From: a virus | IMG/VR virus record: IMGVR_UViG_3300025133_000268 | Coordinates: 1 to 39,815 of that record | Length of the DNA: 39,815 bases | Strand: one strand, 5' to 3' | In this document: positions 15,701-39,364 of the stretch, piece after piece | Layout: every line of letters begins with the position of its first letter | How positions within the stretch are numbered: the first letter of the stretch is position 1 | The notes under the pieces: generated by a model | Told to the model about the DNA's origin: nothing | Databases searched by the model: none | What the model saw: only the letters and a program-made list of their open reading frames with translations | Made by a program: the position numbers and the translations under genes

Positions 15701-16983
15701 ACGTAGGTAGACGTAGGCTCGCTGTGGGATTCAGAAATGGAGATGAGATCCCGATCCTTGATGCAGTAGACGGGGTCGGTGCTGGTGTCGAGATTATAGA
15801 AAGGGGGCTTAAAGACAATGTCGCCGTCTACATCTTGATAGAACTCAAACCCGGAGAGACCCTTGACCGTGTCGGCAATCTCCATCTTCGACATGTATTC
15901 CGCATCGAACATGTTGGGCTGACCCATCCGGCCAAGGTCCAACACGAACGCCTGCATCTTCAGCACGCTCTGCTTCGTGCCCTCCTGATCGACAATAGCC
16001 TCCTCAAACGCACTGGCCCGGTAGCCCACCGTGCGGGCGGCGGCTTGGTAGTTGGCCTTAGCATCAGGGTTGAAGTTCTTGGGAAGCTCAATGCCAAAGG
16101 ACTTAATGAACTCCGCCCCTTTGGCAGCGTTCCCTTTCACATCGAACATGCCAATAAAGGCTTGTTCAAAAGCATTAAAAAGAGAGCCATCGGCTCCATA
16201 CATACGCAGCCGCGTAGATGCCTCCCCCCATCTTTTCTCCCACCATAGAGCCGCATGTTTGTAGAGGCTCTTGCCGGTCCCATCCGCCACAGCGGAGATG
16301 TTAGCCTTCTGGGCAATCGTCCAGTTCACCCCAAACGCCGATCCAAACCCCACCCGCATCAACGTGTAGATGATGGAATAAGGGGACATCCCATTCATCT
16401 TGTGGCCCGTCAGATCGATGCCGCCCCCGTCATCCTTGGGGGAAGTTCCGAACACCGACCCGTTGGTGTTGATCTGAAGGTACTGCCAGAAATGGAGGAT
16501 GTTGGAGCAGGACAGGTTGGCCGTGTAGAAGCCACCCGAATACTCATGGGAGACCTCCGTCACCACTCCCCGGAAGGTTTGATAGTACGGATAGACGGGA
16601 ACTTTCTCATCGGCATCTGTGGTGCTCTCTTGCCCCTTGGCCGCGTAGCCCGCCACCGGGAAATACCCTCGCATGAGGATGAGGACTTCAAGGCCGGGTA
16701 CCAGAACGTAGTTCCCATCGTGAGAGAAAACGGACGCATCATTGGTAGGGATGGACATCGACAGGCTGGCCGTCGAGACCGGCTCGGTCGTGGGGTCACA
16801 CGACACCTGTGTGATGTACTTGTTGAAGTCGAGCTTGTTGTTACAGGTGGCACATGAAGCGAACTGGGTGTGGCCGTTGATCAGAACGATACAATCCGGC
16901 GTATGGCGCACCACCGTTTGAGAACCCAAACGGTAAGTGCCCGCGTAAGGGCGGTTGCCAAAGCTGTTGTCACCTACAGACAT
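12790..16983 (-). CDS. Baseplate hub protein with N-terminal Cys4 cluster (1397 aa)
   Basis: This probably forms the hub connecting tube and spike, as gp27/gpD do. The N-terminal 180 residues have hub-like features: a beta-rich section with SLSMSIPTNDAS, VPGLEVLILMRG and then FRGVVTEVSHEYSGG followed by ANLSCSNILHF, which matches the strand order of gpD-type hub domains. Cys31, Cys44, Cys47 and Cys62 form a likely zinc site, which is not a standard feature of gp27. The rest is far longer than usual hub proteins (about 350-400 aa). It has a mixed alpha/beta middle, a helical section around residues 1150-1220, and a strongly acidic tail ending in EEGE. It lies between the two gp53/LysM-like genes and the spike, the expected place. 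The start has only a weak ribosome site. Confidence 0.7.
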   Translation of the reverse strand: MSVGDNSFGNRPYAGTYRLGSQTVVRHTPDCIVLINGHTQFASCATCNNKLDFNKYITQVSCDPTTEPVSTASLSMSIPTNDASVFSHDGNYVLVPGLEVLILMRGYFPVAGYAAKGQESTTDADEKVPVYPYYQTFRGVVTEVSHEYSGGFYTANLSCSNILHFWQYLQINTNGSVFGTSPKDDGGGIDLTGHKMNGMSPYSIIYTLMRVGFGSAFGVNWTIAQKANISAVADGTGKSLYKHAALWWEKRWGEASTRLRMYGADGSLFNAFEQAFIGMFDVKGNAAKGAEFIKSFGIELPKNFNPDAKANYQAAARTVGYRASAFEEAIVDQEGTKQSVLKMQAFVLDLGRMGQPNMFDAEYMSKMEIADTVKGLSGFEFYQDVDGDIVFKPPFYNLDTSTDPVYCIKDRDLISISESHSEPTSTYVKGSGGLFQNFTGILDGEFGTRQGKFIDWRLVAEFGWKEANFESQYMSSSGQMFVSAMMRLDLNNVEMKSASITIPIRPELRPGYPVYVECQDAFFYIKSMSHSYAVGGACQTTINGVAKRAKFLPPGMPDRSDGSGSQPIPTLGDVRLSAPGEYPPMPLYVYTEDLLGSEGGEPSGPPRIMGYPNCVMALDPDKLNPRTFAAGIQLGSAQSFLDFALTLGVLRRDPENDEQYFLAQSNEPEQDSIVTYTEVVSEFGEGGIFEKVQALQHTGGLAKWLKEYPKDKIATNFGSALLGVMQRTLSNIADADLLGNWMSLQTATKNLYGHQSIQGQYRYFSSSAPDEADQAPSEITLDGDSGRIGDAPPGKPEVANEITLLTQSGSRIKVGKGMPKRAFRVYGTTATDSDEEGARYVDVTTDDIRFVTFQRIVTKRRIGMQGASPTPFTAWQVSTSGLKTAMGDGMSLFASPRNVEDPCGDRFGNSDAGGVAKSGGYLEFLTLIDAWANKAEVQTDTRYAAKKTKLDNFAQSLKPQQRNRLVADSSLKATRVWRQSDLKAIENISTQAANSLGNLYQLAENAAVKKERELRQQATPKGKVDQSYLTKLKTAKGDLLAGFPNVVDSPNGTPQIVTDELVELPDHSLVLPVSDNSGYEVYGSLAYGRGLNIVSYKGLLNIEGTPTDTNSMAAIEQFMAALIAGGGGKEAGVAHAFTVLTPEQKADLAAGLEVTTNELEGAVEKLLAEAEEGKVFVRNTPVSSRSRGQSYTSNMSIDELASITAEDGGICLCNGVEAQYYMQAFSGEFVQIHGDEAMAEWLKDQAITAGTDWKLTKETLAGEHLDTRAGSALDHYRSLGESFVAGYEDLGREVQGGVQQITSAVKDLEDLEIPSFDGKSTYHIEVLDEDRRIPGIPDSFYYPEDEDEEERRGGETPMVGAGPGSPFNRAYTQDSLREPVEAVGEDSDEAADTEEGE

Positions 16984-24753: not shown

Positions 24754-25545
24754 TCAAGTGAAGGTGGCTGCGTTGTAGATGTTGGAGGAGAACTGATCGT
24801 TACTTGGATCGTTACCCGTAGCAAGGAACTCACCGTACTGGACCTCGGAGAAGTCGTGTACGTCAGTGATCGTCATTGTCCCCGACTCCATGACCAAAGC
24901 CGTATCCTTCTGGAAGCTCGTGCTCCAATCACCCCACCAGCAACCTTCGTAGTAGGTGATGAGGATCTGGTGCGAGCCGGGCTTGTTGTCCTTACCGTAG
25001 GGGCCACCTCCGCCGAGGTTGCCGCTGTACTCAAGACTGTCGATGGCACCGCTTGTCTGGTTGAACCCGTTTTTGGAGAACTTACCGTCACCGGTAGCAC
25101 CCGGAACGCCATGGTCAGCGATAACCGAGAACACAATCTCCTGCTGCACATCAAAGGGCCAACGATGGTGGCGCAAAGAACGCACAGGACCAGAAACGCC
25201 GGAAGCGTAGCCCGTAGACTGCCACAAGTTGGAGAGGTAAAGCATGGTGCGCTCGACCGAAGCCGTCATCGGCTCGGTGTTGCCCGGCACGAGTTCGGCG
25301 ATGATGTCACCGAAACCGATCCCGCGAACCGGCTCGATGCTACGAGACTCCGAAGGACCGAAGTTGGAAAGAACACCAATCTGGAAAAGAGTTTGCGCTT
25401 TAGTCGCTCCATAGGCCGGAGCCAACACTCGCACCTTCTGGGTAACAACACTACGAGTGTTGGGAGAGGTGCCGAACTTATAGAGTCGGGAGGAACCCTG
25501 TATTCCGTTCTGCGGATTTAGATCGAGGTTGTCGCCAGTAGCCAT
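24754..25545 (-). CDS. Tail tube protein (263 aa)
   Basis: Forms the hollow tail tube. It is a compact beta-rich protein of the right size for a gp19-like tube. It has an N-terminal Asn/Asp/Gly-rich stretch, a central Arg/Ser/Gly section, and many aromatic residues in beta-like alternation (ITYYEGCWWGDWSTSF, a section of MTITDVHDFSEVQYGEF). It is directly upstream of two chaperone-position genes and the tape measure. TGGAGG lies 7 nt before the ATG. A 54-bp gap and the strong hairpin after it fit a highly expressed gene. I find no sheath gene next to it in this window. Confidence 0.75.
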   Translation of the reverse strand: MATGDNLDLNPQNGIQGSSRLYKFGTSPNTRSVVTQKVRVLAPAYGATKAQTLFQIGVLSNFGPSESRSIEPVRGIGFGDIIAELVPGNTEPMTASVERTMLYLSNLWQSTGYASGVSGPVRSLRHHRWPFDVQQEIVFSVIADHGVPGATGDGKFSKNGFNQTSGAIDSLEYSGNLGGGGPYGKDNKPGSHQILITYYEGCWWGDWSTSFQKDTALVMESGTMTITDVHDFSEVQYGEFLATGNDPSNDQFSSNIYNAATFT

Positions 25546-25983: not shown

Positions 25984-26210
25984 CAGTGGCTCCTCATTTG
26001 ACCTACCAGTTGAACATACTTGTCCCATCCGTGGAGGGTGCCCCCTTGGGAAACAATCCGCGAAGCCTCGCCGTCTTGAAGCGTAGAAGGGATCAGAGTT
26101 CCCCCGTACCCGCTCCCGGCCCACCCAGCTTCTTTCACTCTGGTCTCCAGAGCCCACCGGGTCGCTACCCGGTAAGGGAAAGTGTGGGGGTCATGGCCGT
26201 CGAGTCGCAT
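25983..26210 (-). CDS. Hypothetical protein (75 aa)
   Basis: Unrecognised small protein, probably cytoplasmic, rich in Gly, Arg and Trp (WALETRVKEAGWAGSGYGG). The start is chosen because GGAGGAG lies 5-6 nt before the ATG at 26210. The longer frame upstream reads through a poly-G/C region without protein-like features. It is translationally coupled to the nuclease gene by a TGATG overlap. It is the first gene of this minus-strand tail run. Confidence 0.7.
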   Translation of the reverse strand: MRLDGHDPHTFPYRVATRWALETRVKEAGWAGSGYGGTLIPSTLQDGEASRIVSQGGTLHGWDKYVQLVGQMRSH

Positions 26211-26296
26211 CAAGTCTCCTCCGCCCCCCCCAGCGAAACATAGGAGGAGTACCGAGAAAGGGGGTGGGAAAAGAGTGCGGGCGGGTAAGAGGGGCC

Positions 26297-26565
26297 ATGC
26301 TTCGTAAATACTCATGTGATTGTATCGGCTTTGAGACCATTGGCCCAAATGAGAGCGGGTGGCTTGGTGTGTGGCTCCGTGTGACGCCACGGGGGAGAGG
26401 GACGAACCACCTGTCACGGTCTACAAACGTCCCGGATTGCTGGAGAAAACCAGTGAACCGTGGGATGCCGCCGGGGAGGAGAGATTGCTCCTCCTGTTGG
26501 GCCGCATGGCGGAGCAGGGCCACCAGCTTACCCTTGCACGTTCGATCCTCGCCCCACCGGGGTAG
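26297..26565 (+). pseudogene. Small Cys-containing gene split by an apparent -1 frameshift
   Basis: From ATG 26297 (AGAGGGG upstream) frame 2 reads MLRKYSCDCIGFETIG, then on to GWLGVW. It then becomes implausible (TPRGRGTNHLSRS). Frame 1 opens at 26353 and from about 26380 reads CDATGERDEPPVTVYKRPG and KTSEPWDAAGEERLLLLLG, to a stop at 26565, nine bases before the next start. Joining the two gives about 88 residues of plausible protein. The shift lies between about 26370 and 26400, near a run of five G. A missing base in this genome, a read error or a programmed -1 shift would all explain it. Function unknown. Confidence 0.55.
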
Positions 26566-26573
26566 GGTGGCCT

Positions 26574-26894
26574 ATGGCTGACGACACCAAAAAGGTCATA
26601 GACCTCGACCAACATCGCCTGCGCCTTGCCGGAGAGGGCAAGGACGGAGTACCTGATCTCGACACCGATCCGGTGGCGTACATCGAAGGTATCTGGGGCA
26701 CCGATGCTTATGGCTGGAATGCCGTCATCGTAGATATTGAAGCCATGCGTAGAGGAGGGGAGAACCTTCCGCTGCGTCCCCCCGAGACTTCCTACGAGGT
26801 AGGTTTGCTCATCCGACACATGCGAGCCTTGGCTAACGACATCGCTCGGCAGAGCGGAATGAACCATCTGGTTCGTGAAGAAGACGAACTATGA
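26574..26894 (+). CDS. Hypothetical protein (106 aa)
   Basis: Unrecognised. An acidic protein with a basic start, a compact core with aromatic residues (EGIWGTDAYGWNAVIVDIEAM) and a C-terminal helix ending in an acidic VREEDEL. ATG 26574 is preferred: it lies eight bases after the preceding stop, with a modest AGGGTGG. The longer frame upstream is a Pro/Gly-rich shadow. Its stop overlaps the start of the next gene (ATGA), so they form a short plus-strand operon. Confidence 0.75.
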   Translation: MADDTKKVIDLDQHRLRLAGEGKDGVPDLDTDPVAYIEGIWGTDAYGWNAVIVDIEAMRRGGENLPLRPPETSYEVGLLIRHMRALANDIARQSGMNHLVREEDEL

Positions 26895-27079
26895 ACCCCC
26901 CTGTCTATGCGATTCGATGGAGCACCGACACCGCCAACGGTGAACTCCCTATCGCCTACATTTCTTTGGAGGCGGCCTTGGTGGGTGCGCGACAATGGGA
27001 GAAAGAGATGGTGGCTCAAGAAAAGGCGTCACCCAAACCTTCCGTCGAATACCGTACCGAAGTCTACCGCCTCCGTTGA
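26891..27079 (+). CDS. Hypothetical protein (62 aa)
   Basis: Unrecognised small soluble protein with a beta-strand-like start (VYAIRWSTD) and a helix with Trp and Glu in the middle (GARQWEKEMVAQEKA). The ATG overlaps the previous stop as ATGA. It lies in the same plus-strand operon as the 106-residue protein and the histone-like protein. Confidence 0.65.
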   Translation: MNPPVYAIRWSTDTANGELPIAYISLEAALVGARQWEKEMVAQEKASPKPSVEYRTEVYRLR

Positions 27080-27124
27080 TTCCATTCCGGGGGTCTTCCC
27101 CACTACCCAGACAAGGAGATCTCA

Positions 27125-27304
27125 ATGTCTGTTTCTGATCAGTTGAACGCTATCATCACCAACCTCCAAGCTGCCGTCGAAGACGCAGGGAAGGTAGATT
27201 CTGGAAAAGCAGGTGCCCCCGGCACACGCCTCCGCAAAGTCGCCCAAGAAGCTAAGAAGAGTCTTGATGAGATTCGTAAGGGTGTCCTCGCCGCTCGCGG
27301 ATAA
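27125..27304 (+). CDS. Small basic histone H1-like (Hc1-type) protein candidate, 59 aa
   Basis: Has an excellent AAGGAG site 7 nt before the ATG. The N-terminal half is a helix with a heptad-like pattern (NAIITNLQAAVEDAGKV). A short flexible Gly/Ala/Pro break follows, then a basic helix with the pattern RLRKVAQEAKKSLDEIRK. This arrangement, helix, SGKAGAPG-type break, then lysine/arginine helix, recalls bacterial histone H1-like Hc1 proteins, some of which occur in phages. It lacks the long Lys/Ala/Pro tail of full Hc1. If correct it would bind nucleic acid. Family assignment is from resemblance only. A strong RNA structure region lies directly downstream. Confidence 0.6.
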   Translation: MSVSDQLNAIITNLQAAVEDAGKVDSGKAGAPGTRLRKVAQEAKKSLDEIRKGVLAARG

Positions 27305-27310
27305 CCGAGA

Positions 27311-27344
27311 AATCACATCGGCAGTGTGATTGTCAGACTGCCGA
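27311..27344 (+). ncRNA. Nested pairing region, pseudoknot or alternative hairpins
   Basis: AATCACA (27311-27317) pairs perfectly with TGTGATT (27325-27331). The whole loop between them, TCGGCAG (27318-27324), pairs perfectly with CTGCCGA (27338-27344). The two 7-bp stems therefore interlock with no spare base between three of the four arms. They would form either an H-type pseudoknot or two mutually exclusive hairpins. It lies 6 nt after the stop of the histone-like gene. No covariation can be tested here. Confidence 0.45.
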
Positions 27345-27355
27345 GAGTGAAAGTA

Positions 27356-27404
27356 AAGCCCCTGAACATGAAAGTAAGGTCTTAACTTTCATGTTTGGGG
27401 GTTT
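27356..27404 (+). terminator. 20-bp imperfect hairpin between two plus-strand genes
   Basis: Positions 27356-27375 pair with 27385-27404 with no mismatch, using three G-U wobbles, around a 9-nt loop. Copies of TGAAAGTAA lie at 27348 and 27369, the second within the left arm. The right end is GGGGGTTT, so the U-tract is only three bases long. It could terminate transcription in either direction or act as a processing signal before the 56-residue gene. Confidence 0.5.
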
Positions 27405-27432
27405 ACTGCTATATTCTGTATGGAGGCGTAAC

Positions 27433-27603
27433 ATGACGCATCTTTCAGAATGGGCTGCCACCCGCAACCTACCTGCCTTAGAATCCCGAGAGACTGCGGT
27501 CTACCTCACGATCCTTGCCCATCGCCATGGGCACCACATCCCTGTTGAGGCATGGGTGTTGATCGCTCACTTCTGGGGCCAAAGCCCCTCCGAGTGGAAC
27601 TAA
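27433..27603 (+). CDS. Hypothetical protein (56 aa)
   Basis: Unrecognised, His- and Trp-rich small protein (LTILAHRHGHHIPVEAW, IAHFWGQS). TGGAGG lies 6-7 nt before the chosen ATG. The longer frame starting at 27391 begins inside the upstream hairpin and is not supported. A His/Trp cluster could bind a metal, but no defined motif is present. Its stop overlaps the stop of the convergent minus-strand gene by 4 bp. Confidence 0.65.
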   Translation: MTHLSEWAATRNLPALESRETAVYLTILAHRHGHHIPVEAWVLIAHFWGQSPSEWN

Positions 27604-28232
27604 GCGTCACTTTTGAGTTTGAGGATCTTCTCGGTCGCGGTCTTCCGCCCAGCCTTCACCTCGGCGGCTTTCACTTCTGCTTTATGGACCTGCTCCCGAG
27701 TATCCGCTCGGCTCCGCGCTTCGCCGTGACGAGCTTTGCGGAGGAGCTTCTGCTGCTCATGGGAGAGCCGGGCGTTGCCCATTAGCGTGAGTTCCCCGGT
27801 GTCCCGGTCTTGCCATCGTGAAGTGAGACCCCGCGCACCGGGCTTCAATGCCTTCACCACTTTGGGGTCCATCGCCATGAGGGCGATGTCCCACACCATG
27901 TCCATGAAAACCCCATCGGCTACTTCAATGGGCTTCCCGTTATACAAAGTAGATTGGCGTTCTTTGAACAAGAGCAACCCGGCCCCAGTCCTCAACTCCA
28001 GATCAAAGAAATGAACTGGGGTAGGAAGTTCCGGCCGAGTGAAGTTAATCCGAAAGGCAAGCGACAGCCGCAAGTCCCCATAGATCACCCGGGGCTGGTC
28101 GATGGTGGCCCAACTTTTCACGATGACCCGCAGGTCTTGGGATTCCACCAGACGAGCCAGAACCTCTTGCTCGTCTTCCGACAAAGGGGTGTAGAGACTC
28201 CCCTTCACCCCCCCAAATGGGTTTTTATCCAT
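27600..28232 (-). CDS. Hypothetical protein with basic coiled-coil tail (210 aa)
   Basis: I do not recognise this. The first 120 residues look like a compact globular domain with alternating strands (VIYGDLRLSLAFRINF, VHFFDLELRTGAGLLLF). Residues 150-210 form a charged Lys/Glu/Ala/Arg helix (KLLRKARHGEARSRADTRE, then KAEVKAAEVKAGRKT) that would suit a nucleic acid or protein interface. AAGGAG lies 7 nt before the ATG and partly uses the end of the double cold-shock gene. It is the last gene of this minus-strand run before the convergent plus-strand gene. Confidence 0.75.
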   Translation of the reverse strand: MDKNPFGGVKGSLYTPLSEDEQEVLARLVESQDLRVIVKSWATIDQPRVIYGDLRLSLAFRINFTRPELPTPVHFFDLELRTGAGLLLFKERQSTLYNGKPIEVADGVFMDMVWDIALMAMDPKVVKALKPGARGLTSRWQDRDTGELTLMGNARLSHEQQKLLRKARHGEARSRADTREQVHKAEVKAAEVKAGRKTATEKILKLKSDA

Positions 28233-28244
28233 GACGCTTCTCCT

Positions 28245-28679
28245 TCACGGGACTTTAGTGCCCCCCACTTTACCCGTCTGCTTCACATAACAAGCGCGAG
28301 GTCTCCCCCTTCGGACCCCAGCATAAAACGACAGGGTGGTACCAATCAGAGGGGAGAACTTCTCCAGCAGATCACTTCGATGAAGAAAGTAAAGGATCTG
28401 GCCTGCTCTAATGAACCCCCACCCCTTCCCCACATCAAAGGAAGCCACCGTCCCCAAACAAGGCGTGGGGGAAGTAGTGCGGTGGACAGAGACGGCGCGG
28501 GGGTTTCCTGTGCCTTCAACGATCTGGGGCACTTCCACGCTCTCCCCCATAAGAGGAAGCACCGCATCCGAGGCAACAAAGTCCTCCACACGAAAGAAGA
28601 CGCGCCCCTCCCCCTCCAACGCCACACAAAAGCCGTAGCCGTGGCTTATTGAATACATGTCCACCCGCATGAGAGCCAT
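28245..28679 (-). CDS. Double cold-shock-domain protein (144 aa)
   Basis: A predicted single-stranded nucleic-acid binding protein. The second domain (residues about 75-133) is a good cold-shock match: GTVASFDVGKGWGFI, then YFLHRSDLL, and a closing SFYAGVRRGRPRA. The first (residues about 8-68) is a degenerate copy with HGYGFCV and RVFFRVEDF, then ESVEV. CspA-type proteins are about 70 residues with a single domain, so a tandem pair is uncommon in phages. Function is likely RNA chaperoning or ssDNA/RNA binding during infection. AGGGGG lies upstream of the start. Confidence 0.75.
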   Translation of the reverse strand: MALMRVDMYSISHGYGFCVALEGEGRVFFRVEDFVASDAVLPLMGESVEVPQIVEGTGNPRAVSVHRTTSPTPCLGTVASFDVGKGWGFIRAGQILYFLHRSDLLEKFSPLIGTTLSFYAGVRRGRPRACYVKQTGKVGGTKVP

Positions 28680-28706
28680 CGGGAACCCCCTAAGCGGTGA
28701 AACCTA

Positions 28707-28991
28707 TTAAGCGTAGAGCGCCTCAAGGATTTGCGCTTTAGTCGCTCCCGGGGGGGTGTCCACACCCTTCGCCTCTGCTTCGGCCAAAAGCTCGGCTTTG
28801 GTGTTGCTCATGGTGAGCCGTTCTTCGGCAGGAGCGGCTTCCGGTGCAGCAGGTGCAGCAGGAGCGGCTTCCGGTGCAGCAGGTGCAGCAGGTGCAGCAG
28901 GTGCAGCAGGTGCAGCAGCACGGGCAGCGGTAGAAGTACGACGAACCTTGGGGTTACGCGAGAGAAGGACGGACATGACACGGCGAGACAT
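28707..28991 (-). CDS. HeH/SAP-like protein with Ala-Pro linker (94 aa)
   Basis: The C-terminal 35 residues (TKAELLAEAEAKGVDTPPGA, then TKAQILEAL) have the helix-extended-loop-helix look of SAP, LEM or Rho-N domains, which bind nucleic acid. The N-terminal 25 residues are basic (SRNPKVRRTSTAAR). Between them is a low-complexity linker of AAP and PEA repeats encoded by a near-exact DNA repeat. AAGGAG lies 7 nt before the chosen ATG. It recalls the C-terminus of the 102-residue protein at 30845. A short internal start at MSNTKAEL is possible but has no good ribosome site. Confidence 0.65.
   Translation of the reverse strand: MSRRVMSVLLSRNPKVRRTSTAARAAAPAAPAAPAAPAAPEAAPAAPAAPEAAPAEERLTMSNTKAELLAEAEAKGVDTPPGATKAQILEALYA
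28831..28917. repeat. 30-bp and 9-bp tandem repeats in Ala-Pro linker
   Basis: A 30-bp unit at 28831-28860 is repeated exactly at 28861-28890, and three further ggtgcagca (9-bp) copies follow. On the minus strand they encode Ala/Pro linker units. In-frame changes in copy number would alter linker length only. Confidence 0.85.
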
Positions 28992-29002
28992 TAGGTATCT
29001 CC

Positions 29003-29377
29003 TTATTTGTAGCGATTGACAGGACCCGGTGGAGTGACATGGATACCAGCGGTAGCTTCCTTCTTTTGGATAGCGTCGTTGATGGCCATTTCATCCCCCG
29101 GCATGGGACGTTTGAACAAGTGTTTATTCCGCCTCATCAACTTGGTGAGCCGTGCTTGGCTCACTGCGTCCATGGTAGGAAACAACTGGTAGAACTGATT
29201 AAGGGCTATAGGACTGTTCTTCACCGCAAAGAGGATGAACTCGTCCTGCAAGACACACGGGTAGTCGGTGTCTTTCTTCACATAGGTGGACCCGTCCGGA
29301 AGTTCAACGACGGTAGACTCCGCCCCTGCCAAACCGTTCTTCCCCATGAAGTCCCAGTATCCGTATGGTGATGCCAT
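29003..29377 (-). CDS. Hypothetical protein (124 aa)
   Basis: Unrecognised. A compact N-terminal part carries YWDFMGKNG and a beta section with DGSTYVKKD, and the C-terminal half is helical and basic (SQARLTKLMRRNKHLFKR). No transmembrane segment or signal peptide is seen. AGGAGAG lies upstream of the ATG. It is in the same minus-strand run as the HeH-like and cold-shock proteins. Confidence 0.75.
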   Translation of the reverse strand: MASPYGYWDFMGKNGLAGAESTVVELPDGSTYVKKDTDYPCVLQDEFILFAVKNSPIALNQFYQLFPTMDAVSQARLTKLMRRNKHLFKRPMPGDEMAINDAIQKKEATAGIHVTPPGPVNRYK

Positions 29378-29412
29378 GCGCTCTCCTGTCCCCGTGACCC
29401 TTCATAGGGTTT

Positions 29413-29937
29413 CTACCGTGTGGGGGGGAGTTTTACTTTCCCGAGGGGTTTTGTTTGAACTTCGTCGCGCAACCTCGGCGGCGGTTCCTCGCCCACTTTC
29501 TGTTGAACAGATGTCAGCCGAGCCATGATCTGACGCTTCTGCCTCCCCAAGTCACTAATGTCCACCCCCACCTCTGCTGCTTGTTGGCGCAAGGCGTCAA
29601 GAGAGGGGAGACCGGCCCCACCCAAGGCTCCTACAACTGGCGCGGGTTTTCCCTCCCGGTCGTACTGCACCCGCAGCACAACGACTCCCTCGGGGTTAAC
29701 GCGCAACGAGGGGTTTCCTCGTCGCTTCTGTTCTTTCATCAGCGTCCGTGCCGTGACAGCCACCAGTTCGCTCTCTGCCAGAACCTTGTTGGCTCTCCGA
29801 AGAGCCTCTTTCGCTTCTTCGACCAGAAGACCTACCGTGGTATGTGTCCCCTCCTCTGTAGGAACGGCCAAACCGAAAAGAGCTTCTCTCAAAGCGGGAG
29901 ATACAGGAATATCCACAGGGCGGAGCTTACGGGTCAT
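29413..29937 (-). CDS. Hypothetical protein (174 aa)
   Basis: Unrecognised. The N-terminal part is helical (LLVEEAKEALRRANKVLA). A central beta section, VNPEGVVVLRVQYDREGKPAP, is followed by a C-terminal helical region with LPSLDALRQQAAEVG and Gln/Arg-rich segments. The end is basic and Pro-rich. It is the first gene of this minus-strand run, facing the plus-strand exonuclease across a 66-bp divergent gap. No clear promoter is visible in that gap. Confidence 0.75.
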   Translation of the reverse strand: MTRKLRPVDIPVSPALREALFGLAVPTEEGTHTTVGLLVEEAKEALRRANKVLAESELVAVTARTLMKEQKRRGNPSLRVNPEGVVVLRVQYDREGKPAPVVGALGGAGLPSLDALRQQAAEVGVDISDLGRQKRQIMARLTSVQQKVGEEPPPRLRDEVQTKPLGKVKLPPTR

Positions 29938-30003
29938 CCCCCAACCTCACAGGGGGGGTGGAAAACCCCCGCAGCCCCGGTAGGTACAAGAAAGGAGAGC
30001 CTC

Positions 30004-30543
30004 ATGGACCGTCCTCTATGCTTTGTTGACACTGAAACCACTGGTCTGGACCCTGCTGTGGCGGAGGTGATTGAAATCGCTATCACTCGGCGTGAACCCG
30101 ATGGGAAAGAATCTCGTTACTATACCCTCGTCCTCCCAGAGAACATCGAGGATGCCTCCCCAAAAGCCTTAGAGATAAACGGCTACGCCGACAACCCTTC
30201 GCGCTGGGAGAACGCCCCCCCTATGAGCACGGTCGGCCCTCAAATCCTCGCCTTCCTTGAAGGAGGAGTGTTGGTGGGGCACAACGTCGCCTTTGATGAG
30301 AGGATGTTGGCGGCCCACCTAAAACGGGCCGGAGTAGAAGGGCGAGTCCCCTACCACAAGATCGACACCGTCACCTTAGTTTACGAACACCTGTTCCCCA
30401 AAGGGTTGAAGCGAGCCTCCATGGGGTCCGTAAGAGAGTTTCTCGGCTGGTCAGCAGAAGGTGCCCACACCGCGTCCAAAGACGCGGATGATGCGATGCG
30501 CCTGTTTGATCTCTTGTGGAGGTCCGGTACCTCCTCTATTTAG
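30004..30543 (+). CDS. DEDDh (DnaQ-like) 3'-5' exonuclease, 179 aa
   Basis: A proofreading-type or RNase-T/oligoribonuclease-like exonuclease. The motifs are visible in order: Exo I DTETTG with Asp9 and Glu11; Exo II GHNVAFDE with Asp98; Exo III His155 followed by Asp160 (HTASKDADDA), which makes it DEDDh. No polymerase or other domain is attached. AAAGGAG lies 7 nt before the ATG at 30004; the longer frame upstream starts inside the opposite-strand gene and is not supported. It is an isolated enzyme gene on the plus strand between two minus-strand structural runs. Confidence 0.92.
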   Translation: MDRPLCFVDTETTGLDPAVAEVIEIAITRREPDGKESRYYTLVLPENIEDASPKALEINGYADNPSRWENAPPMSTVGPQILAFLEGGVLVGHNVAFDERMLAAHLKRAGVEGRVPYHKIDTVTLVYEHLFPKGLKRASMGSVREFLGWSAEGAHTASKDADDAMRLFDLLWRSGTSSI

Positions 30544-30577
30544 CGGGGTATGGAAGAACCCCATACAGGAGCCTCCT

Positions 30578-30778
30578 ATGCCAGTCCGATCTACTACTTC
30601 CGAGTACCAGCCTTCTCCACCCTACCTGCGCCTCCGCTCCAGCGGAAAGGTAGGAACGGGAGTCAACCGCGTTGTCCGCGCTACCGCGACCAACAACACC
30701 AAAGCCAACATGTGTGTTGCCCCCGCCAACTCGGGTGGTGGTGGTGGCATGAAGGTCAACGTGTCCTTCTCGGGCTGA
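30578..30778 (+). CDS. Gly-rich small protein (66 aa)
   Basis: Unrecognised. Begins MPVRSTTSEYQPSPPYLRLR and has a basic central part (KVGTGVNRVVRATATNNTKA), then a Gly-rich stretch with a final short strand (MKVNVSFSG). AGGAG lies 6 nt before this ATG. It follows the exonuclease by 34 bp, so they probably share a transcript, which ends at the hairpin just downstream. Size and composition suggest a structural or decoration protein, but nothing specific is seen. Confidence 0.6.
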   Translation: MPVRSTTSEYQPSPPYLRLRSSGKVGTGVNRVVRATATNNTKANMCVAPANSGGGGGMKVNVSFSG

Positions 30779-30791
30779 TCTCTCCCACACT

Positions 30792-30834
30792 GCAAAGTGG
30801 CCTCTCCGGATTCCTTTCGGGGGGGCCTCTTTGC
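30792..30834. terminator. Bidirectional hairpin at a convergent junction
   Basis: GCAAAGTGGCC (30792-30802) faces GGCCTCTTTGC (30824-30834): 10 of 11 pairs, with one T-T mismatch, around a 21-nt interior that can pair further. It separates the plus-strand Gly-rich gene from the minus-strand 102-residue gene, both ending nearby. It has no long U-tract on either side. Confidence 0.6.
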
Positions 30835-30844
30835 TTCCGGGTAC

Positions 30845-31153
30845 TTAGGACAGAATCGCGATCAGGTCGGCCTTCTTCATAGAAGAGAAGCCTTTGACAC
30901 CGCGTTTCTTGGCCACAGCCTTGAGTTCGGCCACCTTCATCTTAGTCAAATCCACTGCCTCGTGAGTTTGGGTGATAGCTTCCTCCACGGCTTCCTTAGC
31001 CTCCAACACCTCGGCGGCCACTTCTTCCACGGCCTCCTTCACAGGGGCTTTCTTTCCAAGGCGACGAAACGCCTTGACGATGGAAGCCCACGGACTGTTG
31101 GACACACCTTTTTCGTGGTGCTTGACGATCTTCTTTGCCTGACGCTTTTTCAT
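30845..31153 (-). CDS. SAP/Rho-N-like protein with basic N-terminus (102 aa)
   Basis: A predicted nucleic-acid binding protein. Residues about 67-102 (DLTKMKVAELKAVAKKRGVK, then KKADLIAILS) fit the SAP/Rho-N helix-loop-helix pattern. The first 35 residues are strongly basic (MKKRQAKKIVKHHEKG). The middle is an acidic coiled coil of Glu/Ala/Val residues. The ATG lies 3 nt after the stop of the actin-like gene. The domain resembles the end of the 94-residue protein at 28707. It is the last gene of this operon. Confidence 0.7.
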   Translation of the reverse strand: MKKRQAKKIVKHHEKGVSNSPWASIVKAFRRLGKKAPVKEAVEEVAAEVLEAKEAVEEAITQTHEAVDLTKMKVAELKAVAKKRGVKGFSSMKKADLIAILS

Positions 31154-31156
31154 GTT

Positions 31157-32173
31157 CTACTCGGTTTCGTACTCTTGCATGGCTTGAATCAGGAGACCCC
31201 GGGCCACCGCATTTAGGGGGTCACTCGCGTGACGGATTTCGCTTACCTCAAACGGGAACTTCCGGCGTTTCTTAGCAAAAACCTGCTCAAAGAAGGGGAG
31301 GAAGTTTCCGGCCAGACTCGTGCCTCCGCTAACCACAATGGGGATAGCCTTGGGGAGAGCAAACCTGTCCTTAATCTTGATGAACTCTCGGGTGGTCTGG
31401 TCGATGCAATACTCAATGAGACTCTTGTAGTAGAGCGCCAAGGCCTCCTGTTCGCGCCCCTCGGGAGCCATGAGGTCAAACCCCTTCTCCTTGAGCGCAC
31501 ACATACGGCTGTGAGTGGACCCCGTGGCCTTCGCGGCTCCGGCATCAATCCAGTCACCACCTCGCGCAACACTGAACACCATGCCCTCAACGCCTGACAC
31601 CGCCAGAGCAAGGTTGCACATGCCGGAGCCAAACGAAATGCCCAGTCCCGAGAAACCGTCGGCGGCAGTCTCGGCGTAAATGATAGCCATGGCTTCGTTG
31701 CTGGGGTAGGCCTCGTAGCCGCACTCGGTCACGATGCGTTCAAACACACCTCGGTGGTAAACCACATCGCGGTCGGCATCCACAGGAGCGGCTGGGACAC
31801 TGAAATAGCAGATCTCGTTCTTCTCCGTCGGCTCTCCGAGGACGTTCTTGATAAGAACTCCGAGCACATCGAGGGCGTCCATCTCTCCCGCCGAGATCAG
31901 ACCCTGCGACAAAGGGCGGCGAGCTTCCCGGCCAAAGACGTTGGCCATGTCCATGGCGGCATCGCCAACGACAATAATCCCATCCTCACCGTGATCAATA
32001 AAGTTGACCCCAGAGAGCTTCAACATCTTCTTGGCACCGGATTCCAGATCCAAGAACGCATCTCGCATCCGGCTCGTTTCAATCGAACCGTCAGCGGTAC
32101 GCCGCGCACCGACAAGGTTCATGGTGCCTACATCGAGCCCGATCCCCAACGGGGCTTTTTTCTTGGTGGCCAT
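31157..32173 (-). CDS. Actin/Hsp70-fold (ASKHA) ATPase, 338 aa
   Basis: A nucleotide-binding protein of the actin/ParM/MreB/Hsp70 superfamily. The motifs fall in the right order: phosphate-1 GLDVGTMNLVGAR (12-24), connect-1 SNEAMAIIYAE (158-168), phosphate-2 GLGISFGSGMCNLAL (176-190), adenosine motif VVSGGTSLAGNF (280-291), connect-2 DPLNAVARGLLI (318-329). It lacks an Hsp70 substrate-binding domain and matches the size of ParM-like filament-forming proteins. AGGAG lies 6 nt before the ATG. Its neighbours are a basic-tailed protein and a SAP-like protein, which could be adaptor and DNA partner. Filament formation is an inference; a chaperone-like or enzyme role remains possible. Confidence 0.85.
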   Translation of the reverse strand: MATKKKAPLGIGLDVGTMNLVGARRTADGSIETSRMRDAFLDLESGAKKMLKLSGVNFIDHGEDGIIVVGDAAMDMANVFGREARRPLSQGLISAGEMDALDVLGVLIKNVLGEPTEKNEICYFSVPAAPVDADRDVVYHRGVFERIVTECGYEAYPSNEAMAIIYAETAADGFSGLGISFGSGMCNLALAVSGVEGMVFSVARGGDWIDAGAAKATGSTHSRMCALKEKGFDLMAPEGREQEALALYYKSLIEYCIDQTTREFIKIKDRFALPKAIPIVVSGGTSLAGNFLPFFEQVFAKKRRKFPFEVSEIRHASDPLNAVARGLLIQAMQEYETE

Positions 32174-32182
32174 GAGAGTCTC

Positions 32183-32869
32183 CTATTTCTTCTTCCGAGA
32201 GGTTTTCTTCTTTGCAGGGCTGCTCTTCCGCAGAGCTTTAAGAGCAGATGCCGCATCATCCAGCCCTTCGCCTCCCCCCGAAGATTCGGATTGGACATCA
32301 AGACTCTCGGCACCGTCCCTCACAATACCCGTGGGAATGAACAAAGGTTCTTCGGGGCCGCCAAAAGCCTCACCTTCGGTGCCTCCTCCTGCCCCGCCCA
32401 TCATACGGACGTTGCCCAACACCTTAGTGACTACTTGCTCCAGCCTGTCCTCCAACGCCGATGCGTCCGGAGTGGTCTGTGCCGCGTTCATCATTGACTG
32501 CATCATAGGAGCCATGGAAGCAATAGCTTGCTGTGCCGCCGCCGCTGCGGCTTCCGCCACCATCTTTTGGGCTTCTTCGGGGGTGAGGCCGTCGATCTTC
32601 GGCGGGGGTTGTTGGCCCCGGTGCCGGTTGAGTCCCCGGTTGCGGGACAAGTGGACCGAATGAACAGCGGGTTTCTTAGGGGGATCTTTAGACACACGGC
32701 ACCTCGCGCCAGCAGATTGCCGGACCTTTTTGAGCTTCAACAACGCTTGAAGACAGGCGGAAGCCTGCGCTGCCGTCTTGTCCACCCAGATAGGGCCGGG
32801 GCCAACCCTCACACCGAGGTCTTCCACCCAAACGGGCTCGTCTGCGTCCAATCGGATCTGTTGACTCAT
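32183..32869 (-). CDS. Possible adaptor protein with Lys-rich tail (228 aa)
   Basis: Unrecognised. The first 60 residues look like a small folded domain (VWVEDLGVRVGPGPIWVDK and a Lys/Leu-rich helix). The middle is Ala/Met/Gln-rich helix (AAAAAAQQAIASMAPMMQSM). The C-terminal half is Gly/Ser/Glu-rich and disordered, and the last 15 residues are a Lys/Ser tail ending in KKTSRKKK. The stop of the previous gene overlaps its start (TAATG), and its own stop is 9 bp before the actin-like start. It could link the actin-like ATPase to nucleic acid, but that is inferred from context only. Confidence 0.65.
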   Translation of the reverse strand: MSQQIRLDADEPVWVEDLGVRVGPGPIWVDKTAAQASACLQALLKLKKVRQSAGARCRVSKDPPKKPAVHSVHLSRNRGLNRHRGQQPPPKIDGLTPEEAQKMVAEAAAAAAQQAIASMAPMMQSMMNAAQTTPDASALEDRLEQVVTKVLGNVRMMGGAGGGTEGEAFGGPEEPLFIPTGIVRDGAESLDVQSESSGGGEGLDDAASALKALRKSSPAKKKTSRKKK

Positions 32870-33489
32870 TAAAATAGACTCCCGGATTCCAGAAAGGCGG
32901 CCACGATCTCATCTTTGAGTTTCTTGACCACTTCTACTCTCCCTTTACGAATACCCCGCTCGATGAAGGTGTAGCGCGTGAAGCCGGGATGAATCCATGC
33001 GTCGTCGGTAGTGAGAGGGGCAGTTCGGATGATGACCTGACCGTTCTCGGTCACAATAGGGACGTACTTGACCTTGGGCTGGACGAGCCAAGTCATTGGA
33101 ATCCCCTTCTTGGGGTGCTGCGCTGGCTTACCGGGAATCGCCGCGTTCAGGTCGCGGGTTGTCGGCTTGACTGTATGGGCTTCAGCGGTAGGCCATGAGG
33201 ACCAAATCTCGATGGTTGAGGTGCCTTTTATCTTCCAGTGGAAGGAACGGATGAAGGCTTCCCCTTGGGGGATAGGGATGGGCTTTCGATCATCATAAGG
33301 TTTCGGCCAAGTGCCGCCTCGCAGCCCTTTCGACTTCTCCATGTCCCGTCGAATCTCTTTCTTCACCGACCGGAGAATGATGGCGGCTGCTTGGCGAAGC
33401 AGCTTAGTGTTCACGGCAGCCTTGTCCCCGGCTTTGAGGAGAGGCTTGCCGTACAGCCCCGTCATCTTGGCGTACTTGCGATTATTCAT
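32869..33489 (-). CDS. Virion morphogenesis-like protein (206 aa)
   Basis: Possibly a head-tail connection or tail-completion protein of HK97-gp10-like type. It has a basic N-terminus, then a helix (LRQAAAIILRSVKKEIRRDM) and a Gly/Arg-Trp loop. The beta-rich middle includes FHWKIKGTSTIEIWSSWPTA, and the protein ends with the helical KGRVEVVKKLKDEIVAAF. That order (N-terminal helix, beta sheet, C-terminal helix) fits the gp10-like fold. The ATG at 33489 overlaps the end of the preceding gene; AGGTG is a modest ribosome site. Family assignment is by resemblance and moderate. Confidence 0.55.
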   Translation of the reverse strand: MNNRKYAKMTGLYGKPLLKAGDKAAVNTKLLRQAAAIILRSVKKEIRRDMEKSKGLRGGTWPKPYDDRKPIPIPQGEAFIRSFHWKIKGTSTIEIWSSWPTAEAHTVKPTTRDLNAAIPGKPAQHPKKGIPMTWLVQPKVKYVPIVTENGQVIIRTAPLTTDDAWIHPGFTRYTFIERGIRKGRVEVVKKLKDEIVAAFLESGSLF

Positions 33490-33796
33490 GGAACACCTGC
33501 CACATAGACACTGCAAAAGACACTACCGAGATCCCCATTCCCAGAAGGGCCAACCGTTTAGAGAACCGGGCCTGTGTGTAGGCTTCCCCGAGATTGTCCC
33601 GTTGAATCTTGTAGGTCATGTGTTCAAGGGGAGTCACATCAGGGATGCGCTCCAAAAAGTCGGGACACTCACGGCTCTCGTATACATCGCTACTGTGAAG
33701 GCGCAGTTGATACCAGACACACACCCCCCCGTAGATCTTCTCGGGGTGGTGTTTGGGGTATTCATTCCACAGCCCGCATCGCCCGCATCGCGCCAT
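33482..33796 (-). CDS. Cys4 membrane protein (104 aa)
   Basis: Unrecognised. Four Cys residues at 4, 7, 26 and 44 suggest a zinc-ribbon-like N-terminal domain (MARCGRCGLW). Residues 82-102 (LALLGMGISVVSFAVSMWQV) form one predicted membrane segment at the C-terminus. GGAAGG lies 6 nt before the chosen ATG. The longer frame upstream runs antiparallel to a coding region without support. The ribosome site overlaps the end of the tandem-ART gene, so they are likely cotranslated. A membrane-anchored metal-binding protein could anchor or regulate a partner. Confidence 0.7.
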   Translation of the reverse strand: MARCGRCGLWNEYPKHHPEKIYGGVCVWYQLRLHSSDVYESRECPDFLERIPDVTPLEHMTYKIQRDNLGEAYTQARFSKRLALLGMGISVVSFAVSMWQVFHE

Positions 33797-36689: not shown

Positions 36690-37256
36690 CTACCCGGCAC
36701 TGTTGCTCCGCCCCCCGTACCGAGCCGCCACCCGTGCGGCCGAGGGGGTGGTGCCAACCCAAACGGGAAGGGTCTCTCCAGCGATCTCTTGGGCTGGCTC
36801 TCTCCCTCGTTCAGAAGGGACCAGCAACCCCAGCAGAGCACCACGCACGTTCAGGGTGGTGCTCTCCCTCTTGGTGATCCACTCGTCCTCACCCTTTTTC
36901 CAAAGGAAGGAGTTGAGCATCCCGTTCATCCACGCCTGCTCCATGCACGCTTCGTCGTCGAAGCCATCTTCATCCATGCACTCCTCTGGGTAGACGAACT
37001 GTTCCTCCCACCCCTCCCCAGCGATGTAAGAGGCCTGTTCGGGGTATTGCTCCGCCCACTTCTCCGTGTATTTCACCTGCATAATCTGGTTGCCCAAATC
37101 CGAGCTATCCAACACCAGTGCTACGTCCCCATGTCGAATGTCACCTCCAAACAGAGGCTTCTCGGAGAGGGAGATGTAGGGGGAGAGGCTTTTCAGCTTT
37201 CCGGATTGGAGAGTGCGCTTCAGCTTATTCCACGAGGTAGTGTGAAAGAGTCTCAC
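36690..37256 (-). CDS. ADP-ribosyltransferase-like protein with C-terminal SAARV motif (188 aa)
   Basis: The N-terminus has LFHTTS with His5, then LSPYISLSEKP (24-34) and a strand (VALVLDSSDLG). A later EWITKREST (125-133) is followed by strand GALLGLLV. This order matches ART-like folds (His, Tyr/Ser-rich strand, Glu motif). An acidic loop sits in the middle. It ends with TPSAARVAARYGGRSNSAG, the same motif seen at domain borders in the two larger ART genes. The GTG start at 37256 overlaps the stop of the structural gene (GTGA), with a GGGG before it. The function is inferred; alternatives are an inactive structural homologue or a different fold with the same signature. Confidence 0.55.
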   Translation of the reverse strand: MRLFHTTSWNKLKRTLQSGKLKSLSPYISLSEKPLFGGDIRHGDVALVLDSSDLGNQIMQVKYTEKWAEQYPEQASYIAGEGWEEQFVYPEECMDEDGFDDEACMEQAWMNGMLNSFLWKKGEDEWITKRESTTLNVRGALLGLLVPSERGREPAQEIAGETLPVWVGTTPSAARVAARYGGRSNSAG

Positions 37257-39364
37257 GACCCCTTGCCACCGTAGGTGATGTTGGCCCACACCGGAGTGCG
37301 GCCTCGCTGTTCCCGAGCGTCATCAATCTTCGGCACTTCCGTGGCCATAGGGGAGGCCTGATAGTCGTACCCAACCGGATAGGGGTTAGCATCCTCGCAG
37401 GGCGAGTCTTCCGGGTTGTTGTAGCGGGTCTCGGGCCACGGCAATCGTTCCAAAGCCCCCATGGGCACCTTGTAGCGGATGTCGGTGGAGTCGAGGTAGC
37501 CGATCTGAAAGGCTTGTTGGAGCACCAAACCACGAACTTGGGTTCGGCGCACCGGGCCAATAGAGTAGCGTTCCCCGTTCTGCTTCACGATGAAGTCACG
37601 CTGGGAAAGCATCGGTGAGGGACCGATCCATACTTCGTACTGATTCTGAAGCTGCCGCCCGTTAGCTGTCTGCGCCACACGGCGTTCGCTATCGTCGGGG
37701 CCAACAATGATGTCAATGGGACCTTCGTAGCCTCCCACGAACCCGGTGCCGTAACACTTGATGCAAGTGTTGGAAGGCTGTTGGGTGTACTCCTCCAATC
37801 GAGGGTCCCACACGCAATCGCACTCCACCCCTGTCACACGGCGGATGAAAAGTTTAACCCGCTCACCCCCCTGTTCCAGAATCCACCGGTTACGCCGGAT
37901 GGCTTCCTTCCAGATGTAGTCCATCTTCTCGCTGTTCATAGGCGAGATGGGTTCGGTGTATCCCAAGGGAGTTTCCACCAGACCGGTGGGGCTTTCCCCA
38001 CTCTCGTCGATGGCTACGGTCGTGAGACGATAGAAAACCTTATGTTTTTCGTCCAACACATTGACGAGGGTTTCCCCTCGCTTCCAATAGTAGTTGACGG
38101 TAACGGGGGTGGTTTCCGTGGGGGCAGTGAACTGAATCCATTGTTCAGTGCTCGCATCCCATACCGGCGCAGTGTCCAGAGTGATCTGACCCGTAGGACC
38201 AAACACATCAGCGACGGGCACGCGCACCCCGCCGATGTAAACCTCCACATCAAAGGGAGAATCGGCTGCTACTCCGTTCCCCGTCTTCTTCACCATTGGG
38301 CGGTTACGGGTCTGGAGACGCCAGACTCCTTCGACATTAGGCATCGAACCCCGGAATACCCAGCCGGTATCCCACGGGATGACCTCTCCCATCTGCTCCA
38401 CAATATCGGTGCGGTCGCGGAAGAAGTTAGTCATCACCGGAATGTGGTTCACCCGGAAGTAAGGACCCCGCTCCCCTGTGTCGGATCTATAAACATTGAC
38501 CCCGAGGATGTTCCACTGGGTGTTGGACTTCCCCTCACAGGGAACCCCGAGTCCTCCGCTGGTTTGGGAGTCACTGGTAACCAAAGCGGTGGTGTTGGTG
38601 GTAGTGATGGTGATCCCATCACCCATCGTGCCGTCCCGGAAGGCGGCGATAAGGACTTGGTCCCCCGCCGTCACCGTAGCCGTCACAAAACTCAAAGTGT
38701 TGGTAGCATCATTGATAGCATCTGCGATGCTCTGGGCCGTGTCGAAGTTGGTCGGCCCCACACCAAAGTTCATACCCCCCGCTGTACGAGCAGTTTCCGC
38801 ACTCAACACCTGCCCACCAATCGTGAGGGTGTCGGCATCCAGCCCCCCGGAGAAGGTGGCACCAGACGCAGCGATGCGGTCAGAGTCGGAGGACAAGGTC
38901 GTCGCATTAGCGGCTTCCCCAGCCGTCCCGGCTGTCAAAGTCACGACTGCCAAGGCCGAGATAGCGGTGGCAATCCCCCATGCCCCCACACTGCCTGTCG
39001 TGATAGCGGTAGCGATGTTGGCGGCCACAACAGCGGTGTCACCCGACGAGCCGTCAAACTCATCAACGCCGGGCACCCCGGCGGAAGCGGTGAGCACGAC
39101 CCCTCCCACCTCGATGGTGTCCCCAGCAGTGATGGGGGCACCAACGAGAGTGAAAGTAGCTGTGGCCGCCGTGAGAACATCGGGAATCCCCGCCACCGTC
39201 ACCGACACCGTAGCCCGGGTGGTGGGGGTAGCAGGACCTGTGCTCAAAGTAGAGGGGTCATCCCAGCGGATGTCCGTATCCGAAGAATGGAAAGCGGACA
39301 TCGCTGTACCATTGGCCGGAGGCCACGGGAAAGATCCCGATATTGGCTCCCAGCCAGTAGTCAT
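37253..39364 (-). CDS. Structural protein with duplicated beta modules and Cys cluster (703 aa)
   Basis: Probably a virion surface or neck component. Residues about 79-174 and 175-272 are two diverged copies of a beta module (GDTIEVGGVVLTASAG and ADTLTIGGQVLSAET, each with IATAI or IADAI and ending in SGGL), a type common in phage structural proteins. A middle part (about 290-480) has aromatic residues and strands. Residues about 514-540 hold four Cys residues as CDC and CIKCYGTGF, a DnaJ-like zinc pattern, followed by VGGYEGPIDIIVG. The C-terminal 100 residues are rich in Pro, Asp and Arg. The start overlaps the preceding stop (TGATG). Confidence 0.65.
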   Translation of the reverse strand: MTTGWEPISGSFPWPPANGTAMSAFHSSDTDIRWDDPSTLSTGPATPTTRATVSVTVAGIPDVLTAATATFTLVGAPITAGDTIEVGGVVLTASAGVPGVDEFDGSSGDTAVVAANIATAITTGSVGAWGIATAISALAVVTLTAGTAGEAANATTLSSDSDRIAASGATFSGGLDADTLTIGGQVLSAETARTAGGMNFGVGPTNFDTAQSIADAINDATNTLSFVTATVTAGDQVLIAAFRDGTMGDGITITTTNTTALVTSDSQTSGGLGVPCEGKSNTQWNILGVNVYRSDTGERGPYFRVNHIPVMTNFFRDRTDIVEQMGEVIPWDTGWVFRGSMPNVEGVWRLQTRNRPMVKKTGNGVAADSPFDVEVYIGGVRVPVADVFGPTGQITLDTAPVWDASTEQWIQFTAPTETTPVTVNYYWKRGETLVNVLDEKHKVFYRLTTVAIDESGESPTGLVETPLGYTEPISPMNSEKMDYIWKEAIRRNRWILEQGGERVKLFIRRVTGVECDCVWDPRLEEYTQQPSNTCIKCYGTGFVGGYEGPIDIIVGPDDSERRVAQTANGRQLQNQYEVWIGPSPMLSQRDFIVKQNGERYSIGPVRRTQVRGLVLQQAFQIGYLDSTDIRYKVPMGALERLPWPETRYNNPEDSPCEDANPYPVGYDYQASPMATEVPKIDDAREQRGRTPVWANITYGGKGS

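Follow-up and report, generated by a model that had tools for sequence, protein, structure and literature searches.

Here, we found that an actin-like ATPase of 338 residues (VOL), encoded among the virion genes of a phage contig, belongs by its sequence to the volactin family, and that it stands in a conserved gene block, gp37-g215-g228-VOL, directly after the gene of a putative adaptor, g228. We propose that huge phages probably use actin filaments of their own to organise particle assembly. The window, i.e. the whole stretch of DNA that was analysed, comprises 39,815 bases of a viral record in the class 'linear', which often denotes a fragment; nearly all of its large open reading frames lie on the minus strand, and a 42-kb contig (L002) is near-identical to it. 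A first-pass annotation of the window had described three adjacent genes, and we confirmed them on the minus strand with gaps of 9 nt (g228 to VOL) and 3 nt (VOL to the SAP gene):

32183..32869 (read 32869->32183), minus strand: g228, 228 aa, Lys-rich end, putative adaptor
31157..32173 (read 32173->31157), minus strand: VOL, volactin-family actin-like ATPase, 338 aa
30845..31153 (read 31153->30845), minus strand: Rho_N/SAP protein, 102 aa, with a Rho_N domain

All three are real genes, given the PF25216 match and low dN/dS of VOL, the Rho_N domain of the 102-residue protein and the conservation of g228.

Residues 11-331 of VOL match the Pfam family PF25216 (Volactin) over profile positions 3-321 of 321 (E=3e-77, 260.7 bits, at a curated cut-off of 35 bits), and 19 of 19 related records scored above this cut-off too. 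A PHROG search returned no match for VOL. Since Volactin is the sole Pfam family that VOL matches at E<1, we rejected a sugar-kinase or other metabolic ASKHA identity, which the first-pass annotation had raised as a competing outcome. Haloarchaeal proteins from plasmids of Haloarcula and Natrinema, listed there as hypothetical, are 39-40% identical to VOL across 97% of its length and match PF25216 at ~450 bits. The AlphaFold2 model of VOL shows an actin/MreB fold with a two-domain ATPase (pLDDT 91.5, pTM 0.90). Foldseek searches with this model returned MreB and MamK as top matches (E about 1e-13 to 1e-14), and the best solved relative by profile was MamK (E=1e-4). The earlier label 'ParM-fold' was thus too specific, as VOL is closer to volactin, MamK and MreB than to ParM.

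We compared the nucleotide site across 75 sequences, comprising the window copy and 74 distinct loci. The phosphate-1 Asp is kept in 74 of them, the remaining one having a gap, and no variation was seen at connect-1 Glu160, in the GDW.D motif or at the adenosine Gly-Gly; E160 is aligned with the catalytic residue of actin (Q137) and MreB (Glu). All five actin-type motifs are present, as had been claimed, but the phosphate-2 motif has lost its Asp (actin D154), which is Ser in 75/75 sequences. This Asp is present in the MamK and MreB families, and its replacement by Ser is unusual among actins. The same Ser is found in the two haloarchaeal volactins examined (from Haloarcula and Natrinema; the Haloferax protein was not among them), and VOL and the haloarchaeal members have in common the motifs SxGxGMxN at phosphate 2, GDW[IV]D and NE at connect 1. 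Because the change is shared with the haloarchaeal volactins, we regard it as a family-wide trait and not as decay; apart from it, the loss of ATP-binding residues in homologues that would speak against the first-pass reading was looked for and not seen. VOL is under strong purifying selection: where dS was measurable, dN/dS was about 0.04-0.07.

How far are volactins spread among viruses? Searching viral contigs with the single sequence yielded 40 relatives of VOL, and searching with a profile yielded 459. We retained the best 80 of the latter; among these 80, contigs reach 618,736 bases, others measuring 497, 485, 376 and 372 kb. Two phages of an annotated collection carry the gene as well, LR745208.1 (485 kb, VOL identity 62%) and LR756511.1 (595 kb, 33%). 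The phage volactins form a single clade, separate from the haloarchaeal ones (support 99/98); for the sequence of the 595-kb phage, which has a very long branch, the placement is unsure. In a cellular survey of 287 Patescibacteria and 296 Actinomycetota genomes, where a true volactin was defined by >200 bits, only the two genomes that had started the search contained one, and all other matches stayed <40 bits. With 40 or more syntenic viral contigs and such rarity in the surveyed genomes, we rejected the explanation of a host gene caught on a contig. One 297-kb contig (loci L004 and L007) carries two volactin copies, each with g228 and g215, and its putative sheath is distant from one of the copies; either this genome has two modules or the contig is chimeric.

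The order gp37-g215-g228-VOL is kept across loci, as seen by tblastn of the window proteins, and a profile-based synteny survey covered 74 distinct loci. g228 was found upstream of VOL in all 67 loci with at least 1.2 kb of upstream sequence, g215 in 59 of the 65 with >2 kb and gp37 in 52 of the 56 with >4.5 kb. g228 is an obligate neighbour in these loci, nearly always directly adjacent to VOL and now and then up to about 1.2 kb apart; since 29 sequences of the same loci went into the g228 profile, roughly 40 of the 67 are independent of it. VOL is the best conserved member of the block, with a median identity of 65% compared to 50% for gp37, 38% for g228 and 31% for g215. The further genes of the block and the tail genes that lie downstream of it in the window are:

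32869..33489, minus strand: g215, 206 aa from its ATG, conserved cassette gene
37253..39364, minus strand: gp37, 703 aa, conserved cassette gene
24754..25545, minus strand: putative tail tube protein, 263 aa
18961..22212, minus strand: tail tape measure protein (phrog_991, E=8e-5)

Searches with Pfam, PHROG and PDB profiles gave no usable assignment for gp37, g215 or g228. The best PHROG match of g215, 'tail completion or Neck1', is weak (E=0.03, one member only), and g215 is possibly a neck or tail-completion protein. gp37, which has no relative in Pfam or PDB, has as its core the C-terminal ~420 residues with CxC and CxxC pairs. In the 485-kb phage, two genes a few kb upstream of the cassette encode a protein with a caspase domain (Peptidase_C14, E=2e-25) and one of VWA type (L045:11748-12596 and 13401-15872).

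A homologue of the tape measure protein lies downstream of VOL in the 485-kb phage, and homologues of the 263-residue protein, which we take for a tail tube protein from its position, follow VOL in six loci (48-79% identity); weak matches to tail-tube initiators were also found downstream of the cassette. In most large relatives VOL is followed by a long putative tail sheath, which starts 2-5 kb past VOL in the four records measured; it has no sequence match in the PDB and was named by its length, its N-terminal 'PGVYT' and its position. In the 595-kb phage, the only one in which a Terminase_6N search found a terminase, VOL is flanked by baseplate gp25 on one side and by the genes for terminase and portal on the other, in a common orientation, and no recognisable g228 adjoins it. 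Given the tail genes downstream and the context in the 595-kb phage, the structural-operon setting is robust, and the earlier reading, an actin-fold ATPase encoded together with an adaptor-like protein among virion structural genes, was borne out.

Three further observations concern virion genes. The window lineage (window 26000-31000; G005) is devoid of the long putative sheath seen after volactin in other large phages, and may be a non-contractile relative or perhaps have its sheath elsewhere. At the end of the tail module of the window, one reading frame stays open for 3226 aa or more (3-9680, minus strand). The T4-type portal of the 595-kb phage probably contains an intein (L046:36213-38786; Intein_splicing, E=4e-8).

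The family of g228 is diverse (17-51% identity to the window copy), with a common layout of a ~53-residue N-terminal domain, a Pro-rich disordered linker, helices and a conserved C-terminal block. This block, '[DE]EP.[FY]IP..IV' followed by the helix 'LD.A..ALKALRKKK', is kept while the rest of the protein drifts, and 68 of 71 members carry at least four K/R within their last 12 residues. As g228 and VOL lie in one frame, it was possible to fold a read-through translation of both (TAG as Gly) by AlphaFold2 with 11 natural read-through pairs. In the fused model, the N-terminal domain of g228 reached a pLDDT of 89-98 and the linkers stayed <50, and the C-terminal block (180-215) formed a strand and a helix at about 80-86. 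The block was confidently modelled only within this fused chain, a hint of docking on VOL, with which the model would fit; the ordered motif could instead pair with g228 itself.

The 102-residue protein, a Rho_N match (E=3.6e-10), had been suggested as a further nucleic acid-binding partner. It is found only in the window lineage (L002, L005, L006 and L081), whereas g228 is universal, and since only the closest relatives have it, we rejected it as a core partner. Just past its gene lies an RNase_T/DnaQ-like exonuclease gene (window 30004-30543, plus strand; E=3e-15); it runs against the SAP gene, an orientation that several close relatives preserve. A second small protein with a SAP-like C-terminus is encoded ~2 kb past volactin in close relatives (window 28707-28991, minus strand) and has no Pfam match at E<0.01.

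What could a volactin do in a virion gene block? We give an even chance to a VOL filament that is coupled by g228 to the virion neck or tail and organises assembly or positioning. We infer that VOL would bind and hydrolyse ATP and assemble into dynamic filaments, as the cellular volactin of Haloferax does in vivo (PMC10869688), that the C-terminal motif and helix of g228 would dock on VOL, and that its N-terminal domain would attach to a neck or tail component. With such a bridge, the filament would act late in infection and tether, move or gather heads, tails or complete particles. VOL would then be the actin counterpart of the PhuZ tubulin, which delivers capsids in nucleus-forming jumbo phages and whose mutant filaments trap them (PMC9067925). 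A search of 16 large volactin-phage records gave no match to tubulin (PhuZ), which fits a replacement by actin, though most of the 16 may be fragments. Gene neighbourhood is no proof that virions are the cargo, and we weighed this reading against others.

The first-pass annotation had pointed to nucleic acid as the cargo. One rival reading is a system of the ParMRC or AlpAC type that partitions DNA or positions replication sites, with VOL as its filament and with g228, or else the SAP protein, as the part that binds phage DNA. Such a role has a phage precedent in AlpC with its co-transcribed adaptor AlpA (PMC4446434), and DNA partitioning is also the role described for salactin, a further actin of haloarchaea (in PMC10869688); contacts with nucleic acid could be made by the Lys-rich g228 ends and by the neighbouring Rho_N/SAP protein. 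We nevertheless consider it unlikely. No direct-repeat array or other centromere-like site was detected near the operon (window 29900-33600), and in three relatives the repeats found were gene-internal or unshared and without a consistent placement. Moreover, searches of Pfam and of PHROG/PDB-type profiles recognised no DNA-binding domain in g228, only close relatives have the SAP protein, and the genes belong to the virion cassette instead of lying beside replication genes.

VOL is in fixed linkage with a partner that is disordered for the most part and has a conserved motif resembling a docking site. This would also suit a switch that does not polymerise, in which VOL serves as an ATP-driven assembly chaperone, with a logic like that of Hsp70 or EutJ, and holds g228 or a neck or tail protein while the particle is assembled. 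The ASKHA fold is common to VOL, EutJ and Hsp70, the phosphate-2 Asp is missing in VOL, and the volactins of gas-vesicle clusters could likewise be assembly factors. However, VOL is without an Hsp70-type substrate-binding domain, it is nearest in sequence and fold to filament formers (MamK, MreB), and cellular volactin polymerises in vivo (PMC10869688), which leaves the chaperone improbable in our estimate. Finally, because VOL is encoded between cassette genes and tail genes, it might be a structural component of the neck or tail, with an ATPase site left over as a relic or kept as a sensor; this is very improbable, as the full nucleotide site is strictly conserved and VOL is conserved far more than its cassette neighbours.

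Are volactins associated with other large assemblies? The two cellular members of our survey, from a Falkowbacteria MAG (L044:10001-10996) and from a second genome of the same Patescibacteria order (L156:9913-11022), are 55% identical to each other, and each lies inside a gas-vesicle gene cluster (GvpN-like, CDC48-like, GvpL/F, ArsA, GvpO, GvpK and GvpA across the two genomes). Counting the phage cassette, volactins are thus seen alongside two kinds of large protein assembly in addition to haloarchaeal cell shape, which gives circumstantial support to a role in building or positioning such assemblies. We tentatively extend the filament reading, at less than even odds, to hundreds of tubulin-less huge phages that would run a virion-cassette actin with an adaptor to the neck or tail and thereby move or array their particles; volactins would then organise large assemblies, i.e. 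virions and gas vesicles, besides cell shape.

The volactin family, until now described only as a haloarchaeal cell-shape actin, and phage actins as such (AlpC) are already known. The phage cytoskeletons known so far are mainly PhuZ/TubZ tubulins, plus a small number of actin-like proteins with a link to phage DNA. In the open-access literature we found, provisionally, no report of phage volactins, of the gp37-g215-g228-VOL cassette or of gas-vesicle volactins, in line with the first impression that the arrangement matches no known pattern; the huge-phage survey mentions tubulins and not actin in its main text. A fixed actin-adaptor pair in the virion block of hundreds of huge-phage contigs would make actin-driven assembly or transport of particles in bacteria directly testable, and phage VOL would extend the volactin family beyond archaeal cell shape.

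Among known systems, volactin of Haloferax volcanii (VolA, HVO_2015; PF25216) belongs to the same family as VOL over the full length, and the haloarchaeal volactins examined have the same phosphate-2 motif. In contrast to VolA, which acts in the rod-to-disk shape change of the cell (PMC10869688), VOL is viral, its phage relatives form their own clade, and it stands together with g228 in a virion cassette of fixed composition. MamK and MreB are the closest solved structures by profile and fold, but they are below about 20% identical to VOL (Foldseek) and have different partners; MamK positions an organelle. The direct linkage of an actin-like filament gene to an adaptor gene recalls AlpC-AlpA of prophage CGP3 and ParM-ParR, from which the VOL operon differs in an unrelated adaptor sequence and in the lack of centromere-like repeats nearby. 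In addition, AlpAC belongs to the early genes and is linked to replication of the phage DNA (PMC4446434), whereas the VOL genes lie in the virion block. PhuZ of nucleus-forming jumbo phages is a cytomotive phage filament whose capsid transport is analogous to the job proposed here for VOL, which has an actin fold and not the tubulin fold of PhuZ and TubZ.
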